A stretch of DNA of 64,000 nt from Tilletia caries (Eukaryota; Basidiomycota; Exobasidiomycetes; Tilletiales; Tilletiaceae). A program made the position numbers and the translations under genes. Location of the stretch: NCBI GenBank assembly GCA_032718865.1, contig JALUTQ010000045.1, forward strand, positions 1,878,792 to 1,942,791, read 5' to 3'. Every line of letters begins with the position of its first letter. Positions within the stretch are counted from its first letter, which is position 1. The notes beneath the pieces are model-generated. The model was given only the letters and a program-made list of their open reading frames with translations, ran no database searches and was not told where the DNA came from. Shown here piece after piece: positions 4,237 through 59,557 of this stretch.

Positions 4237-5463
4237 TGGGTGCTGGAAGGCAAGGCTTTACGTAGGATAACGACACGATTGTTGCAGTGTTGATCACTTT
4301 CGCGGTCCAGTATCTCACTCGATCTTGCATCACCATTCCCTCATCCTTTAGCATCACGAATCATGATCTTGTAGTTCGTCTCTGATATGAATTAAATCCT
4401 TTCTCCGCTATCCATTGATTACTCGTTGCCAGAATCATAGTCGATTCCAATTATATATGGCGAGAAGCCAGATAGCCAGAAGGAATGGCGAAAAGCGAAA
4501 AAGGGTCAGAGAGGGATGGCAGGAGCTGGTGGAGGAGAACTGGGAAGCAGAGGAACGACAACAGCAGAAGCGGGTCAGCTCGCACAGTCGCACCGGTGGA
4601 TGGGATGAACGTGGGGGAGAAGACAATGACAGACTCACCGTCTGGCTGGTCCTGATGTCGCCGTCTCTGAGGGAAAGGGGGGAAAGAGAGAAAGGGAGAG
4701 GTCTGCAAAAAAAGAGGGAGAGAGAGAAAGAGAGGGTTCTGCAGAGAGAGGGAGAGGAAAGAAAGAGAGCGCACGCGCCGAGGTGAGGACGTAGACGTAC
4801 ACGCGAGCGCAGGGGCAGAGGCAGAGACAGAGGCAGACTGGCAGAGACAGAGGCAGAGGCGGAGATGGAGGTGGGAGGCAGAGGGGGGAAGGGGGCGGAA
4901 CTCACCTGGAGCAGTGGATGGTCTTGATGTGATGTGGAATGTGGCCGTGTGGCGAAGGTGAAGTGAAAGCGGTGGTGGTGATGGTGTGGCGAACACTTGG
5001 TATGTCACCCTTTCTGAGAGGGAATGAGAAGATGGTATGGGACGTTGTTGGCGAGGTAGCTGGCGAGAAAGACCGTTTCGCGCCCTTTTATTTTCATCTC
5101 AATGATACTGAATTGAAGGGAAAGGGGAAATCTCAGAAAGAAATGAGATATGAGAATGGATGCTCCTTCCGAGCTTTGCCCTTCTCACTTCTGTTCTCAT
5201 CTCAATTCTCAACGATCATGAAGAGAGGGAAAAAGCGGAAATTTCAGAAAGAAATAAGAATGAACGGATGCTGATCTACAGAGCGGACTGCGGAGAGCCT
5301 CGCCCTTCTGTTCTCAAATGTCCGGTGTCCCCTGCTAGCTAACTGCCTGCTTCACATCCGCAGCTTTGCCCTTCCTGCTCTCATCCTCGTTCTCGACCTT
5401 CGTCTTCATCAAACTTTCTACTCCGTTTCGCCTGAAACACTTCACACGGCAGGCCAAAGTCCA
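4237..5463. repeat. Purine-rich low-complexity tract and short duplicated segments
   Basis: No convincing gene. Around 4660-4770 the plus strand is dominated by GAGAGA/GGGAGA runs, and 4800-4880 by imperfect GGCAGAGACAGA repeats. Open frames on either strand here (Arg/Glu-rich or Ser/Leu-rich) are products of this composition. A diverged duplicated segment, recognisable by AGCTTTGCCCTTC next to TGTTCTCATC-like sequence, occurs near 5175 and again near 5360. The last 100 bp are the 5' flank of the repeat-protein gene at 5464. Confidence 0.5.
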
Positions 5464-7043
5464 ATGTCTGCTACCGAGCGAGGCAACCCTCCCTGGTATG
5501 CGTATCCTGCTCGTTACCTCTCAGCTCCCTTCTCGCAGCATCCGGTACAACAACAGTCCAGCCGTCACGATCTGACGTTTTACCGCCCTCAAGGACCTGG
5601 CACCCAGCCTGCTTCGCATCAAAACATGTTCGATACCTCGCTCGGCGGGCCTCAACCTCAAGCTCCTCTTTCCCTTCCAGCCTGGACGAAACCGCCTGCC
5701 AACAGTATGTTCGGGCCGCAAGGACCTCGGGCCCATCCTCCTTGGCATCAGAACATGTTCGATACCTCGCTCGGCGGGTCTCAACCTCAAGCTTCTCTTT
5801 CCCTCTCAGCCTGGACGGAACCGCCTGCCAACAGTATGTTCGGACCTCATGGACCTGGTGCCCAGCCTCCTTGTCATCAAAACATGTTCAATACCTCGCT
5901 CGGCGGGTCTCAACCTCAAGCTTCTCTTTCCCTCTCAGCCTGGACGGAACCGCCTGCCAACAGTATGTTCGGGCCGCAAGGACCTCGGGCCCATCCTCCT
6001 TGGCATCAGAACATGTTCGATACCTCGCTCGGCGGGTCTCAACCTCAAGCTTCTCTTTCCCTCTCAGCCTGGACGGAACCGCCTGCCAACAGTATGTTCG
6101 GGCCTCAAGGACCTGTTGCCCAGCCTCCTTGGCATCAAAACACGTTCGATACCTCGCTCGGCGGGCCCCAACCTCAAGCTCCTCTTTCCCTTTCAGCCTG
6201 GACGGACCCGCCTGCCAACAGTATGTTCGGGCTGCAAGCACTTTCGACTTTGGACGTCATGCCGGGATCGTCCCTTGCGGGTCACTTCGACGACGGTGAT
6301 CAGCTAGCGTACACCACGATCACAACTGGTGTCGGCCATGACACGCAGCTTCTGACATCTGGTGATGTCCTACAAAGTTGTGAGACGGTAAGCATTATGA
6401 TTCGTGATTCCTCGAGCTCTGCTCAGTGCTCTGCCTACATTGCTGATGTATTGACCAAACTCGCCTTTGCGCTATAGAATGACGACCAGGGTCATCTGGA
6501 CAGCGAAAGAGGCTGCTCTACTGGCATCTCCATTACGAAGGTTCAAGGCGCGACCATCAAGTCGCTGAAGAAACGTTTTCGGTTTCAACCTACATCTATC
6601 GCAACCAGTCAGCGCACGCGAGCTGGAGCTGGCACATGGGCGCGTCTTTATGCTCGGCACCGACGACCAGAACTATCAGCGAGCGTTCTGCCTCTGCCCG
6701 CCGGGTTTCCTGACGTTACCCTTGTCGTGTGGATGATACTGAACCCCCTAAGCAGCAAGGAATCCTCTACCGGCAGCTCTACAAGAGCACATTGCACTTG
6801 TCCAAGCACGCATCAGACGCAAGCATCAGGCAGCGGCTTCAAGCTTATCTGGTTCACTATGCGATCGGGCCCAACAAAGGGGAACGGATGCTTTCGGATG
6901 CGTCTCGGTATGTGCACTTCCAATTCAAGAAAGGTTTGACACCAAGAGCCAAAAGTCATCAAGAGATGATCATCCTGCCCGACAAAAATTGCCCATACCT
7001 CAAAAAAGCCAAGAAGCCGCGACGATTCGACGTGAAATTGTAA
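5464..7043 (+). CDS. Proline-rich tandem-repeat protein, 3' part frame-disrupted
   Basis: Exon 1 (5464-6387) starts MSATERGNPPW and is open for 308 codons. A 90-bp intron follows (6388-6477, GTAAGC...CTATAG), in phase 0. Residues about 40-255 are five tandem copies of a 43-residue unit with the core WHQNMFDTSLGG and AWTEPPANSMFG. Downstream, the readable protein hops through all three frames: it runs to about 6575 in the exon 2 frame, then ELELAHGRVFMLG, then a PGFPDVTLVV stretch, then KQQGILYRQLYK to the stop at 7041-7043. This implies two or more 1-nt indels, or very small introns that I cannot define. The repeats predict a disordered low-charge protein. No known domain was found. The 3' half may already be non-functional. 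Confidence 0.55.
5588..6232 (+). repeat. Five tandem 129-bp repeats
   Basis: The string AACAGTATGTTCGG recurs at 5701, 5830, 5959, 6088 and 6217, exactly 129 bp apart. Copies are highly similar; copies 2 and 4 are almost identical. Because 129 is divisible by three, all forward frames stay open through the array, which creates spurious overlapping frames. Confidence 0.9.
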
Positions 7044-35276: not shown

Positions 35277-38184
35277 ATGGCTCCAAAGAAAGGTGAGCCA
35301 AAGAAAGGTGAGTCCGATCGTCGACTTACAGTTGACCTTGGCATCAAGCTGAGCTCGTTGGCTGATCCGTGTTCCTTCCAGGTGAAAAGCCGACTCCGGC
35401 TCGCAAGCAAGCAGGGCGTAGATCTACAGCGGCTTCGGCTCAAGCTACTGCTCCCGGTGCTGGTTCGTCTGCTGCTCCCGTTGGTGGTTCTGCTGGTGCT
35501 CCCTCCGGTGCTCCTTCCTCTGCAACCGTCGGTGCTGCTGTCGGTGCCCATGGCCCCTCTGCTCCTACTCCTTCTGGTGCTCCTTCTAGTGCTCCCTCCG
35601 CTGCTTCCCCCGCTGCTCCGACCGCAGCACCTACGCCCCTTGGTGCTCCTGGTGCTACCTCTGCTGGTGCTCGTCCTACTGGTGTCGGTCCTACTGGTGC
35701 TGGTCCTAAGGAAGAGCACGGAGTGCCCCGGAATTTCCGCACTCCGGGGAGGACCTCCGCAGCAATTCCGGGGCCTCTCAGGGCATTCCGCATTCCGGTT
35801 AAATTACTCTTCTTTCGGGCGCAGAGCTCCGTATTCCGGGGAAAGATTCAAATTCGTACATCTGGAATTCCGGCTTCCGTCAAAATTTAGGCTTTGATCA
35901 ATTTTCGATTCCTCATTCCGCAGCTCCCGGAATGCGGAATTTCGCCGGATTCCGGGACTCTCCTCCGCAGTCGCAAGATCATATGAAAACGAGTCGACCC
36001 CTTTCTAAATCGGCTTTGTACTCGTCCACAGTCTACATTGAAGCTCTGCATTGGCCATTTGATGCCTCACTCGCGTCCATTTGCTCCTCTTCAAGCCTCA
36101 TGTGTCCTGTTGAGACCACAAGACTGGGTCTCCTCATATGTGAAACTCGCCGGAGAGTCTCATTGATAAATGAAACCCCGAATGAGACCCCACATCACGT
36201 GACCCCCCGGAATCTCCCGGAATCCGGCGGAATTTCGGGAGAATGAGCTTGTCTGACCACAGATTCCGCATTCCGCAAGAAAAGTTACGGCCAAAGCAAG
36301 ATCTATTCCGCATTCCGGCTGAGCGGTACCAGGAAATTCCGGCTTCCTGCTTAAAAGGACTAAACTGACAAAAATTGAAAATTAGCATTCCGGGTTCCGG
36401 GTACCGCCGGAACTCTGCCCGGAGTGCCCCGGAATTCCTGCAAACCCATTCCGGGGTCTACTCCGTGCTCTTCCTTAGCTGGTCCTACTGGTGCTCGTCC
36501 TACTGGTGCTGGTCCTACTGGTGCTGGTCCTACTGGTGCTGCTCCTACCGGTGCTGGTCCTACTGGAGGTCTTGCCGCTACACCTAATCGCAATGCTGCA
36601 GCGGCAGCTACCGCCAACGCCAACGCTGTTGCCCAAGCTGCACAGCAACGACTTAATCAAGTTATGTGGGCGAATTTGACGAAGGCCTTGGAGGACAAAG
36701 GCAAAGAAATTTCGGAGTCAACCACCGCGAAGATCGACCAAGCACTTCGGCACTATCATGACTCTGCCGAGTCCTTTCGAACGACTCACGAAGTCTGTGC
36801 CGACGTTCTTGAAGTGACGCCAAGCCAGGCTGTCAACAACAAGTTCATCCTCGTTCTGAACGAGGTGCAGCTGGACGAACTGCAAGAGGCTATGCGAGCC
36901 TACCGCAAAGCAGACGAGGTCTCGTCTCAACTCGAGATGGAATTCCGTCAGCTGCAAAAAGACTTCGCACAGCTGAAAACATCGACGAGAGCACGCACCG
37001 AATCGTCTTCGTCCAGTCTTACATCTTCAAACGATGACGAAGATCCGGAGGCAGCACTGGTTCGAGCCGCTACTTCTGGCGGATCGAAGAAGCGCAAGCG
37101 GCCCAGAAGGAAAAGGGCAAAGGTTGCTCGCGGTCAACCGGACAAAAAGATCCAGGTCGCCTTCGAAGAACTCCTTCGAGAAGATTTCGGGATTGAGAAA
37201 GGCGCTCTGTGGCCCGACTATCCCAACGTACCCAAGAGCTCACCTGAATGGCCACGACACCCGGTCCAAGCTGAGGGGGCGGAAGGAGAACAAGCGGTCG
37301 GAGAGCCGATGGATCGGTTGGACTGGGTGACAGGGAGAATGGATGATGTCAACTTCAAAACAATCTTGCTGAAGCACGCGCGAACGCTCACCGACGAGGC
37401 AGAGGCCTACGGACTGCCAAACGACGAAGGTCAGCGCGAGTTCGACTACATCTTGAATGCTTGTCGACGCACCTTGGACACTCTCAAGCGGACGTGTAGA
37501 GAGCGGCGGCAGATCGACGCAGACGTGCTGAAGAACAAGAAAGCAGCGAAAGACACAGCCGACCGGCGAAACGCTCGCCGCAAGAACCGTCAAAGAGCTC
37601 GTGCCAAAGCTGCACGGAAACACCCACAGCTCTTTGGCGATGCAGTTGCTGATATGCTTGGGCTCGAGTGTGTCGAGGGCGATGAGACTGATGCAGCACG
37701 AAGTGCTTCGGGCGAGGATGAGGCAATGGTCATCGAGGATCGTAAGATCGTTCGCTCGGTCATTCCGGAGTGGTGGTCGACGGAGAACTATGATCTGCAG
37801 AATCGACTGGAAAAGGCAACCTCCAAGTCAGCATCGGGCTATATTCGACGGTCAGCATTGGTCCTCAAAGCACACAGCGAGGTTCTTCCTCCGGCTATCC
37901 CTCGTATCGCCATCAGTTCAAAGTTTGCTGCCGACCATCCAGAGCTTGTGATCGCGGTCAAGAAGAACAAGCCACCTTACAAGCCGTCACCGGGCGCCAT
38001 CGCTGAGAACGCAGACGCGTTTGGCACCCCGATTGCAAACCTTGCTTTGCCAGTAGCTGCAGGAGACAGCGGCGGTGATGGCGCAGAGAACAGCGGCGGA
38101 CCTTCGAATGCAACGGCAACAGGAAATGGTGCAGGAGGCAGTAGCTCGGGCAACAATGGTGTAGACGTGATGATGGGCACATAG
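35277..38184 (+). pseudogene. Collagen-like/coiled-coil protein gene split by a MITE
   Basis: Exon 1 (35277-35307) encodes MAPKKGEPKK. A 74-bp intron (GTGAGT...TTCCAG) precedes exon 2 at 35382. The N-terminal part is basic, then Ala/Pro/Ser-rich, then a GPTGA/RPTGA repeat run. A 771-bp MITE sits in that run. Removing the MITE and one 8-bp target copy restores 685 in-frame codons, so the original protein was about 684 aa. After the repeats come coiled-coil segments (LQKDFAQLKTSTRARTESSS), a basic cluster KKRKRPRRKRAKVARG, and a C-terminal region with VIPEWWSTENYDLQNRLEKA. The last region resembles proteins found beside fungal DNA transposons. The gene converges on the Tnp2 transposase gene and may be that element's second gene (inference). 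Confidence 0.6.
35707..36477 (+). mobile_element. hAT-type MITE, copy 1
   Basis: This 771-bp element begins TAAGGAAGAGCACGGAGT and ends with the inverted copy ACTCCGTGCTCTTCCTTA. It is flanked by the 8-bp duplication GCTGGTCC (35699-35706 and 36478-36485), the length typical of hAT elements. It has no transposase gene. The interior is full of GGAATTCCGG-type palindromes and includes one AT-richer unique block (about 35970-36190). It interrupts the Gly-Pro repeat region of the host gene. Its right end plus the first duplicated G forms TTCCTTAG, a good 3' splice site, but the left junction (CC|TAAGG) lacks GT. Confidence 0.9.
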
Positions 38185-44876: not shown

Positions 44877-46830
44877 ATGGCATCGAACTCTGCGACTGCA
44901 GGCGCTGGAGCAAGCGCAGGCTCAGGCTCAGGCTCGGCCGCCGCGCCCTTCTCGCTCACGACAACACCCACGCAAGAGCAAGTGCTCAAGCTCGTCGATG
45001 GCGCTCCCAACGGGAAGATCGAAGACAGCCGGACTCTCGTCGCAGCACCAACAGCAGATGCAGCAGCGCAGGATGCGGGTGCAGCCTTCAAGCTGCGCGC
45101 GCAATGGCAGCTCACTCTCCAGGGTGTCCTCAACTCGCTCTCCTCGCGCGAAATGATCACCTACAGTAACCACGACGAGCTCTCCTTTGCGCTCACATCG
45201 GAGGGGGCCCAGATCGTCGCCGAGGGCTCACACGAGGCGAGGCTGTGGGATGCGCTCCCCGCAGACCCGGCGCAGGGTCTCAGCATCGACGCACTCAAGG
45301 AGAAGCTCGGAGCAGCCAGCCTCAAGGTCGGACAGGGCAACGCCATGAAGAAAAAGTGGATCGTCAAGTTGGCCGATGGTACCTTTGCGCGCAACCCGGC
45401 GGTCAGCACCATCGTCGACGACACCCGCGCCGATCTCGAGCATGTCGCGCGCACGGGTCAGCCACCGGTAGGGGACGCGAAGAAGGTCGCAGAGCTCAAG
45501 AAGAGGACCCTGATCAGCCAACAGTGAGGCCTGGCCGCGCATACACCCAACATGGATCAAAGAACATTCACTGACAATGCCTCCTTTGTTCCAGAAAACT
45601 GCTCTACTTCTCCATCGCCAAGGGGCCTGCTTTCGCTCTCCACGTCGAGAAGCTCGAGACGGACTTGACGGCAGAGATGATCTCGTCCGGCGCATGGAAG
45701 AAGGCACCCTTCAAGAAATACAATTTTGATGCCGAGGGTGCCGTACCTGCGCACGGCGCCTTGCACCCTTTGCTCAAGGTTCGGGAAGAGTTCAGAAATA
45801 TCTTCTTCGAGATGGGGTAAGTCTGCGCATCACCTGCACATACTCGGCGCATGTATCTGCTTCTGTTTTGCTGATCTTGATGCTTTGCTGGCCGAAACTA
45901 GGTTCTCCGAGATGCCGACCAACCGCTTCGTAGAGTCCAGTTTCTGGTGCTTCGACTCTCTCTTCGTCCCGCAACAGCATGCCGCAAGAGATATGCAAGA
46001 CACTTTCTTCATTCGAGGTACGTTGTACAGATAAACCTACCTACATGCGCATCTAAGATCCCGTCCTGAACAGAAATCTGTTGATTGCAGATCCGCCCGC
46101 CGCCAAGCGCATTCCAGAGGACTACTTGGAACGCGTCTCGGCAGTACACAGCAAAGGCGCGTACGGCTCCACTGGCTACAAAGCCCCCTTCTCCCGGGAG
46201 GTCACCGAGAAGCTCGTCCTTCGCACCCACACCACGGCCGTGTCCGCCGCGATGCTCTACAAAATTGCCAACCAACCAGGCGGCTTTAAGCCTGCGAAGC
46301 TCTTCTCAATCGACCGTGTTTTCCGAAACGAAGCCGTGGACGCGACCCACTTGGCCGAGTTCCACCAAGTCGAAGGTGTGGTGGCCGACTACAACACAAC
46401 GCTAGGCGACCTGATCGGCTTCATGCAGATTTTCTTCTCGAAGATGGGCGTCACCGACTTACGATTCAAGCCGGCGTACAACCCTTACACGGAGCCGAGT
46501 CTGGAGATCTTCAGTTACCACAAGGGTTTGAAGAAGTGGGTCGAGATCGGCAACTCGGGCATGTTCAGACCTGAGATGTTGCGTCCAATGGGCCTGCCGG
46601 ATGGTGTGAATGTGTTGGGATGGGGTCTCAGTCTGGAACGGCCGACGATGATCCGGTATGGGATCAACAACATTCGGGACCTGGTCGGACACAAGGTTCC
46701 CATTGAGAGTGAGTGGACAGCCGACTTTCCTATGTGCCGGCCGCGTCTCGTCCTTGCTGAAGGCCTTCTCACATTTTTTTTCCCCTCTCCCCCAGGTGTG
46801 GTGGCTGCCTCAGCTGTACGCTTTTCCTGA
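44877..46830 (+). CDS. FRS2: Phenylalanyl-tRNA synthetase alpha subunit (cytosolic)
   Basis: Exons 44877-45523, 45595-45816, 45902-46017, 46091-46708 and 46796-46830 join to 546 codons (545 aa), a normal length. The protein charges tRNA-Phe as an alpha2-beta2 enzyme in the cytosol. The N-terminal winged-helix repeats ([18 protein letters not shown] onward) bind tRNA. The class II catalytic core shows motif 1-2 features: [59 protein letters not shown] (motif 2, FR-E) and [15 protein letters not shown]. Motif 3 is [20 protein letters not shown]. The short last exon gives [11 protein letters not shown]. No lesion was found, in contrast to the neighbouring relics. It starts the intact gene block that continues to 53.9 kb. 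Confidence 0.95.
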
Positions 46831-56615: not shown

Positions 56616-58509
56616 TCATCCAGGCGCACCAAGGGCAAGACGGGAGAACGAGGTCTCGATTGGAAGCGTTGATGTGTGGACCACGAGCGAGGCAGTTGTG
56701 GGTTGTGTGTCCATGAGGAGAGGGGCTAGCAATTCCACGTGTTGGCGCAAATAAAGACGCCAAGCATCACTCGACCATCGCCCATGAAGACGGACAGTGT
56801 CGATTGGAACACCTCGGAGGAGAAACTCTGTGCAACCACCAATGCGCAGCCCATGTCCCTTCATGTTGATCGTGATGACACCTACGCCACGAAGAATCTC
56901 GTTGACGCGGCGAAGGAACGCTGTGCGAGTGAGTGGAGTGATTCGATGACGGGCACGAAAACCAAACAGATGCGTGGAGGAGGTGGGCCGATTGACCTCG
57001 ATATGATTCCGTAGAGCGCGCACCGGACACGGAGACCCTGTTTGAGGGGCGAGGACGAGTTTTTCGCCGTTGGGTTGGGTTTTTGTCCAGGGCAAAGAAA
57101 TGACGGCGGCAACCACGTGTGGTGCCGATCGACTCACGGCTTCCCAAGCCAGACGGGACCCAGATGGATGTTTGCGTTCGGTATAACCGTCTTTGTCTTT
57201 GATGAGCAGCTCTCCAAGCCGTGCTAGGCCCCAGAAGGCGGTGAGGAGAGTGGCCCAAACAGCTGCGTCGAAGGGATCGCTGAGAACGAGATGGCTGTGG
57301 ACTGTCCAAAGGTGATGCACTCGGAACGGCGCACGTGGCGGTCGTATGGACGTTGCTGGCGTTAGTCGGTCTGCCCCACGTAGTGCAGTCGTCAGGCGAA
57401 CATGAGCCATGTCCAGTACGCCGCCGTGAACAATGTGCCAGGCGCGTATTCCTGAAACTAAGGAAGAGCACGGAGTGCCCCGGAATTTCCGTACTCCGGG
57501 GAGGACCTCCGCATCAATTCCGGGGCCTCTCAGGGCATTCCGCATTCCGGTAAAATTACTCTTCTTTCGGGCGCAGAGCTCCGTATTCCGGGGAAAGATT
57601 CAGATTCATACATTTGGAATTCCGGCTTCCGTCAAAATTTAGGTTTTGATCAATTTTCGATTCCTCATTCCGCAGCTCCCGGAATGCGGAATTTCGCCGG
57701 ATTCCGGGACTCTCCTCCGCAGTCACAAAATCATATGAAAACGAGTCGACCCCTTTCTAAATCGGCTTTGTACTCGTCCATAGTCTACATTGAAGCTCTG
57801 CATTGGCCATTTGATGCCTCACTCGCGTCAATTTGCTCCTCTTCAAGCCTCATATGTCCTGTTGAGACCACAAGACTGGGTCTCCTCATATGTGAAACTC
57901 GCCATAGAGTCTCATTTATAGATGAAACCCCAAATGAGACCCCACATCACGTGACCCCCCGGAATCTCCCGGAATCCGGCGGAATTTCGGGAGAATGAGC
58001 TTGTCTCGCCACAGATTCCGCATTCCGCAAGAAAAAGTCACGGCCAAAGCAAAAATCCATTCCGCATTCCGGTTGAGCGGTACCAGGAAATTCCTGCTTC
58101 CTGCTTAAAAGGACTAAATTGACAAAAATGGAAAATTAGCATTCCGGGTTCCGGGTACCGCCGGAACTCTGCCCGGAGCCCCCCGGAATTCCTGCAAACC
58201 CATTCCGGGGTATACTCCGTGCTCTTCCTTACCTGAAACCCAGTTTCTGATACTGCCACCCGCATAGGACCCTGCCACATACTCCACAAAGTCGATCACG
58301 TCATCGATCTTGGCTGAAAAACGAGCTGAATTGGGGAGACCGTGCTGATCACACCAGAGGAGCCAGCGAAGCACGCCTGTTCCATATGTACTCCTGGTGG
58401 AGGCGGCCCACGCCGCACCGAGAACACGCTGTCGCTGGGCAGGGTTCCCTGCTGTCAGGAGCGTTGATCCTGGCGGAATCCAGCCAATCAGGCGATCAGC
58501 GGCTGCCAC
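56616..58509 (-). CDS. Tyrosine recombinase (Crypton-like), with MITE-derived intron
   Basis: Exon 1 (58509-58233) encodes the core-binding domain: AAWAASTRSTYGTGVLRWLL and IDDVIDFVEYVAGSYAGGSI. Exon 2 (57457-56616) encodes the catalytic domain: the first Arg in LLTAFWGLARLGELL, the HxxR pair in MKGHGLRIGGCTEF, a GRW motif, and the nucleophile Tyr in DAWRLYLRQHVE. The two parts, separated by MITE copy 2, are in frame if 57458-58232 is spliced out (GTAAGG...CTTAG), giving 372 residues and SIRNWVS|VSGIRAWH at the junction. Catalytic residues are intact. Such enzymes mobilise Cryptons and related elements by site-specific recombination. There is no ATG: coding sequence abuts the telomeric array, so the natural N-terminus is lost or lies in repeats; GTG 58509 marks only the first non-repeat codon. 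Confidence 0.85.
57459..58231 (+). mobile_element. hAT-type MITE, copy 2 (acts as a candidate intron)
   Basis: This 773-bp element is nearly identical to 35707-36477 and has the same TAAGGAAGAGCACGGAGT...CTTCCTTA ends. It is flanked by the 8-bp duplication CCTGAAAC (57451-57458 and 58232-58239). On the host gene's strand the duplication reads GTTTCAGG. Its last G plus the element's TAAGG makes the donor CAG|GTAAGG, and the element's CCTTA plus the first G makes the acceptor TTAG. Both splice sites are thus created by the insertion. The splice removes 775 nt and leaves a 6-nt in-frame insertion. Confidence 0.92.
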
Positions 58510-58516
58510 TGCAGAG

Positions 58517-58570
58517 TTAGGGTTAGGGTTAGGGTTAGGGTTAGGGTTAGGGTTAGGGTTAGGGTTAGGG
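58517..58570 (+). repeat. Interstitial telomeric array 1, (TTAGGG)9
   Basis: Nine perfect TTAGGG units lie directly against the 5' end of the recombinase coding sequence (CACTGCAGAG|TTAGGG). The G-rich strand runs left to right, as it would at a right-hand chromosome end. Confidence 0.97.
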
Positions 58571-59410: not shown

Positions 59411-59557
59411 TTAGGGTTAGGGTTAGGGTTAGGGTTAGGGTTAGGGTTAGGGGGTTAGGGTTAGGTTAGGGTTAGGGTTAGGGTTAGGGGTTAGGGTTAG
59501 GGTTAGGGTTAGGGTTAGGGTTAGGGTTAGGGTTAGGGTTAGGGTTAGGGTTAGGGG
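59411..59557 (+). repeat. Interstitial telomeric array 2, about 24 TTAGGG units
   Basis: It has the same orientation as array 1, with a few variant units (TTAGGGGG, TTAGG, TTAGGGG). It directly abuts the broken 5' end of the SMC4 relic. Confidence 0.97.

Follow-up and report, generated by a model that had tools for sequence, protein, structure and literature searches.

A young hAT-like MITE in a probably truncated tyrosine-recombinase fragment of Tilletia caries: splice-site potential that is most likely incidental

Introduction

Could a transposable element that has landed in a reading frame serve there as its own spliceosomal intron? The question is raised by a 773-bp element of Tilletia caries that interrupts a tyrosine-recombinase (YR) frame and whose edges, together with the target site duplication, read like splice sites. 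The window analysed here is a stretch of 64,000 nucleotides, the final 64 kb of contig C39; the genome searched comprises 38.1 Mb in 40 contigs. Giroux et al. (1994) reportedly saw maize Ds, a hAT element, making a new intron. Ds resembles the element studied here in being a non-autonomous hAT element whose insertion, with an 8-bp duplication, creates splice sites; it differs in that an intron has been reported for Ds, whereas splicing of our element is predicted from sequence only.

Intron formation by maize Ds is also covered in the accessible part of PMC3443670. The accessible part of PMC9860276 treats intron formation by transposons with terminal inverted repeats (TIRs) and target site duplications (TSDs), including introners whose splice sites either come with the element itself or are supplied by the duplication; in some cases codons are added (12 bp in Aureococcus). 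Introners are defined there from annotated introns in many genes, and pezizomycotina, the fungal group named, are an outlier for DNA-transposon signatures. Fungal introner-like elements, repeated sequences proposed as sources of introns, are the subject of PMC4457414; the terms "inverted repeat" and "target site" are absent from the accessible part of that text. Among the titles and abstract openings of the papers listed, we met no fungal hAT MITE that forms introns in a like manner.

Results

The element and its relatives

The features at the insertion, and a second copy in the window, are as follows (a slash within a motif marks a candidate splice junction).

57459..58231, no strand assigned: hAT-like MITE copy, 773 bp, recognised by 18-bp inverted ends and genome matches
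57459..57476, + strand: left TIR, TAAGGAAGAGCACGGAGT, 18 bp, 100% complementary to the right end
58214..58231, - strand: right TIR, complement of the left 18 bp
57451..57458: TSD, downstream copy on the gene strand, GTTTCAGG; candidate acceptors TTAG (G at 57458) and TTTCAG (G at 57452)
58232..58239: TSD, upstream copy on the gene strand; candidate donor CAG/GTAAGG, its G at 58232
35707..36477, no strand assigned: second MITE copy, 771 bp, TSD GCTGGTCC, interrupting a long ORF and lacking a GT donor at the edge

On the plus strand the order is CCTGAAAC (57451-57458), TAAGGAAGAGCACGGAGT...ACTCCGTGCTCTTCCTTA (57459-58231) and CCTGAAAC (58232-58239); on the gene strand (-) the duplication reads GTTTCAGG, with junctions CAG/GTAAGG and CTTCCTTAG/TTTCAGG. 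When the edges were re-read from the sequence, the coordinates that the earlier note had given for a 773-bp element between 8-bp duplications in the recombinase frame turned out to be exact, and the splice-like junctions that it had described, CAG/GTAAGG and CTTCCTTAG/TTT, are present and frame-compatible. Compared with the copies at L017 and L019, the element has no mismatches and four gap positions (99.5% identity); judged by this similarity, the insertion is very young.

The exact 18-bp TIR occurs 51+54 times in the genome, against 0+0 for a reversed control, and these 105 ends give about 53 copies with intact ends. A DNA search yielded 40 full-length matches at 95-100% identity, the window copy among them (40 of 65 candidates scored). 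Extraction by ends produced 51 rows, one of which (L019:2957) was excluded as a sister element mis-paired with a MITE right end; the remaining 50 elements, along with six unused single ends (L012, L035, L075-L078), cover all but one of the 105 exact ends. An 8-bp duplication flanks 48 of the 50 (45 exact, three with one mismatch). The two without one, L027 and L069/070, were excluded, and removal of segmental and tandem duplicates from the 48 leaves 44 distinct target sites. Sister elements with TIRs of the form TAAGGATG[A/G]GCNCGGAGT contribute 90+85 exact occurrences (175 ends). Allowing two mismatches in the TIR pattern also picks up sister ends, and copy number is based on the exact TIR; likewise, the sister pattern with one mismatch (229+242) includes the own ends of the family at 57459-58231.

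The second copy in the window is 96% identical and interrupts an ORF of 679 aa across the empty site, for which a Pfam scan gave no match. Elsewhere, copies of the family are involved in nested or repeated structures. An element of about 869 bp at L011:3077-3945, with ends CAGTGATCAT and ATGATCACTG and 8-bp duplication CTCTCAGG, is nested in a MITE copy. At L019:2957-4501 a sister MITE (TIR TAAGGATGAGCACGG, TSD GACTATAG) itself contains a nested MITE copy, which gives the time order of the two insertions. At G000:C27:981283-984634 three tandem copies, repeating every 1290 bp or so, share the duplication GCAAGGTG, apparently the product of local tandem duplication.

Is this a hAT family? The hAT superfamily follows the rules YARNG for the TIR and a duplication like nTnnnnAn. 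Here the TIR begins TAAGG, which matches YARNG, and the duplication consensus is nYnnnnRn: a pyrimidine at position 2, and hence a purine at position 7, is found in 70 of 88 strands, so that the match to nTnnnnAn is a loose one (T alone in 35 of 88). The duplications are 8 bp long, as in hAT MITEs, in 48 of 50 elements. Taken together, the duplications and the TAAGG ends bear out the earlier hAT-type assignment in the form of a family that is probably hAT-like. P and Merlin-like superfamilies also make 8-bp duplications, and we consider it improbable that the family belongs to one of these other DNA transposon superfamilies instead: a different origin would sit well with the finding of no transposase linked to the TIR among the ends listed, but it is at odds with the position-2 pyrimidine, with the YARNG-type end and with the hAT dimerisation domains found at 74 places in the genome. 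By-eye comparison of these 74 places with the listed TIR ends revealed no autonomous hAT element carrying the MITE's TIR. The only near pair in this comparison, C9:91401, was rejected as an autonomous partner, as a separate 756-bp sister MITE lies beside rather than around the hAT ORF.

The interrupted frame

The host sequence consists of three parts.

58240..58513, - strand: upstream part of the YR fragment; paralog matches extend up to 58513
56616..57450, - strand: downstream part of the YR fragment, a 277-aa piece identified by YR residues and fold model
58517..58570, no strand assigned: interstitial TTAGGG array in the place expected for the YR's 5' part

In the 277-aa piece, the tyrosine-recombinase residues R77, K123, H199xxR202, W225 and Y233 show no variation among the family members aligned (11 of 11). 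The model of this piece (pLDDT 72) resembles Flp and Cre, with E down to 1.7e-5 and TM of about 0.4-0.55. Pfam Phage_integrase scores below cut-off (E 0.043), a threshold passed by one of three further family members (L089), and searches of PDB and NCBIfam with the sequence gave no match. A genome search with the YR found 141 matching stretches among the matches listed.

With C33 and C36, two paralogs that lack the insertion and have ATTTCCGG at the site, the window copy shares 92% identity over 1.2-1.3 kb. Homology of the window copy to both starts at 58513, four bases from the TTAGGG array, which argues that the 5' part of the YR has been lost. The paralogs' upstream ORF adjoins the YR at 10 or more other loci in a by-eye comparison; among the 94 of 262 candidates that were scored for it, none lies at the window copy. 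This ORF keeps WVDD and the RNase H residues in five of five aligned members. Of five members scanned, four have Pfam RVT_3 below cut-off, and a Pfam scan of L079 gave no match. AlphaFold prediction without an alignment was uninformative for the upstream ORF (pLDDT 33), and the motif alignment was used. Relatives of the window fragment thus unite reverse transcriptase (RT; recognised by WVDD, by eye) with RNase H and YR within a single element. Since these lie side by side in the relatives and the 5' part is lost here, the host "gene" most likely represents a piece of a DIRS/Ngaro-like RT-RNaseH-YR retrotransposon that has been cut short. As far as the accessible part of PMC3783388 goes, fungal DIRS/Ngaro elements likewise unite RT, RNase H and YR, as do the intact relatives of the host; the window copy differs in being truncated to the YR. 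The intact recombinase gene assumed in the earlier note must be given up as the host: with the 5' part absent and homology stopping at 58513 by the array, the 92%-identical paralogs point to a 5'-truncated retrotransposon fragment as the target.

Does the open frame tell us that this copy is in use? Most codon differences to C33 (27 of 36 and 34 of 48) affect third positions, which indicates that the YR family has been under coding constraint, and ten more distant paralogs have no stop across the stretch. However, YR divergence of about 8% far exceeds the 0.5% among MITE copies, so that an open frame is no proof that the interrupted copy is used. Nor does the open frame point to selection for splicing, since at 99.5% identity the MITE must have inserted very recently.

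The two closest YR paralogs, L079 and L080, show a one-base difference in the catalytic domain by which their frame is shifted relative to the window copy. Interstitial TTAGGG arrays lie near the contig end at 58517-58570 and 59411-59556, and sequence beside the first of these matches many places near other contig ends.

Splice sites at the element edges

Left unspliced, the recombinase frame runs into a stop at codon 175, counted from 58641. Two introns would remove it. With the acceptor at the element edge, a 775-nt intron leaves 416 codons open and inserts VS; with the acceptor TTTCAG/G in the 3' duplication, a 781-nt intron restores the empty-site sequence exactly and leaves 414 codons open. 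The claim that in-frame splicing adds two codons therefore holds as far as the open frame of 416 codons is concerned, but not as the only outcome, which is ruled out by the exact acceptor that had been overlooked. The two extra codons would sit in the linker W(V/L)(S/A)G(I/L)R(A/T), which has no break in L079 and L080 or in nine of ten further YR paralogs (these ten were chosen for side-by-side match of both halves; the tenth, L089, was not aligned at the site). Of the two acceptors, TTTCAG/G in the duplication is the better.

How special is this geometry? A duplication ending in G yields a GTAAGG donor, and an in-frame acceptor arises from G at position 1, AG at positions 3-4 or AG at positions 6-7, the last giving exact restoration. 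This splice-competent class makes up 13 of 88 strands (14.8%), compared with 10.0% of random 8-mers from the flanks, and G..G itself occurs in 7.7% of the latter. That the frame is kept is a matter of arithmetic, because any 8-bp G..G duplication yields it.

Might the MITE nonetheless act as an intron here, being spliced from a YR message at CAG/GTAAGG and either TTTCAG/G (exact) or CTTAG/TTT (two codons added)? We regard this as possible but rather unlikely. Four introns of a PheRS gene in the same window (Pfam domain at 46057-46830), read by eye, have donors GTGAGG, GTAAGT, GTACGT and GTGAGT and acceptors CAG, TAG, CAG and CAG. The MITE sites fit these and are plausible on that account, although the length is untypical: the PheRS introns count 71, 85, 73 and 87 nt, against 775-781 nt for the MITE. 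Frame retention after removal, a pyrimidine run before the acceptor furnished by the TIR's own complement, and a yUnAy match (TTGAT) 56 nt before the element end also speak for splicing. Against it, besides intron length, stand the missing 5' part of the host ORF and the predicted RNA fold, in which both 18-bp TIRs are fully paired (z -6.8, 20 shuffles); such pairing would cover the donor's TAAGG as well as the pyrimidine run.

Target choice across the family

If the family made introns as a matter of course, its insertions in genes might be expected to favour splice-competent targets. We considered nine insertions in ORFs to which a sense strand could be assigned; ORF calls rest on ORF spans and Pfam, and long ORFs without a Pfam match were left out (for example L015, L029, L010, L041/042, L043/044 and L055/056), except for the ORF at 35707. 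Their duplications on the sense strand are as follows.

YR (window): GTTTCAGG
Gypsy-like polymerase, L036: TCACCAAC, domains on both sides of the insertion
DUF6589, L018: CTGCAGAC, domain on one side
Helitron, L026: ACATGCAG, domains on both sides
DDE_Tnp_4, L017: ATTACTGT, domain on one side
MULE, L037: ACTTCAGG, domains on both sides
RNase H, L061/062: GGTTCACG, domain on one side
DDE_Tnp_4, L071/072: GCTCAGCA, domain on one side
ORF at 35707 (window): GCTGGTCC, no Pfam match

Splicing at the edges could keep the frame in three of the nine (YR, MULE L037 and RNase H L061/062); the family rate of 13 in 88 strands predicts about 1.3 (binomial, about 0.14). Among the 44 sites, six G..G and six C..C duplications (12) compare with 10.1 expected when end bases are shuffled (P 0.29), and the base before the 105 exact TIR ends is G in 40 cases and C in 33. 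The bias of genic copies towards G..G (GNNNNNNG) targets, whose absence the earlier note had named as one thing that would refute its reading, is not seen (two of nine sense-strand insertions; 12 of 44 sites against 10.1), and introner status by target preference is rejected for want of any such excess; with numbers this small, a weak G..G bias may still exist. At empty sites the longest ORF has a median of 247 aa at 31 sites versus 171 at control positions (P 0.08, joined flanks); an earlier control set, whose positions possibly lay inside the element, gave 247 versus 149. The three competent targets of nine, the 13 of 88 strands versus 10.0% and the ORF spans all lean weakly towards an intron-making reading, none of them significantly.

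Of the seven ORFs at insertion sites that have a Pfam match, six belong to mobile elements and one is DUF6589. Ten large ORFs near other copies were scanned as well, six having reverse transcriptase, integrase or MULE matches (one below cut-off) and four none. Among the ORFs scanned, many of which have no domain match, we found no MITE copy in a recognised host gene. The many genic copies with splice-compatible edges that characterise introners are therefore not in evidence: three of nine are compatible, and all nine lie in mobile-element or unassigned ORFs. It seems to us highly improbable that these MITEs are introners, with the formation of spliceable introns in genes having shaped where they insert or how they spread. 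It is true that the TIR supplies both splice signals, that ends are numerous (105 exact plus 175 of the sister pattern) and that the weak leans point this way. Yet there is no G..G excess, six of the nine sense-strand insertions, the copy at 35707-36477 included, are not spliceable in frame at the edges, and no copy was found in a recognised host gene among the ORFs scanned, many of which gave no match.

Discussion

Element, duplication, family copies, empty sites in paralogs, truncation of the host and lack of a detectable target bias are all directly observed. The reading that we consider probable is that a non-autonomous hAT-like MITE recently inserted, as a nested element, in a truncated YR fragment, with splice-site potential that is incidental. 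A hAT-like MITE would have moved by cut-and-paste into a 5'-truncated YR piece of a dispersed RT-RNaseH-YR retrotransposon near the contig end. Its TAAGG start turns any duplication ending in G into GTAAGG at one edge, and a duplication that also has G at position 1, AG at positions 3-4 or an AGG end provides an in-frame AG at the other. The window copy has both G..G and AGG, on this reading as a matter of chance. Any transcript of the fragment may lose the element to the spliceosome, and removal of 781 nt (exact, at TTTCAG/G) would then be more probable than removal of 775 nt. Any splicing would then presumably be incidental rather than an evolved property.

A related suggestion, which we think unlikely, is that the inverted ends constitute ready-made splice signals (GTAAGGAAGAG...CTCTTCCTTAG), such that about one in seven strands would be spliced in frame at once without any target preference; it concerns insertions whose duplication ends in G and also has G1, AG3-4 or AG6-7. 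Were it true, the harm of insertion would be blunted and new introns seeded with no preference for target. By comparison with the introners in the accessible part of PMC9860276, splice signals at the MITE likewise come from element ends and duplication; the difference is that this family sits in mobile-element or unassigned ORFs and displays no target bias. Should splicing occur, the locus would be a further, recent example of the known DNA-transposon routes to introns, one in which paralogs preserve the empty site, and the family of about 53 nearly identical copies, with targets that vary in splice competence, would amount to a natural experiment. The locus also carries a warning: geometry alone, an 8-bp duplication with G at both ends, arises in about 8% of random 8-mers and cannot identify introners.

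Elsewhere in the window, the ORF at 5275-6477 contains about five repeats that resemble one another, each roughly 43 residues long (SLSLSAWTEPPANSMFGPQGP...).
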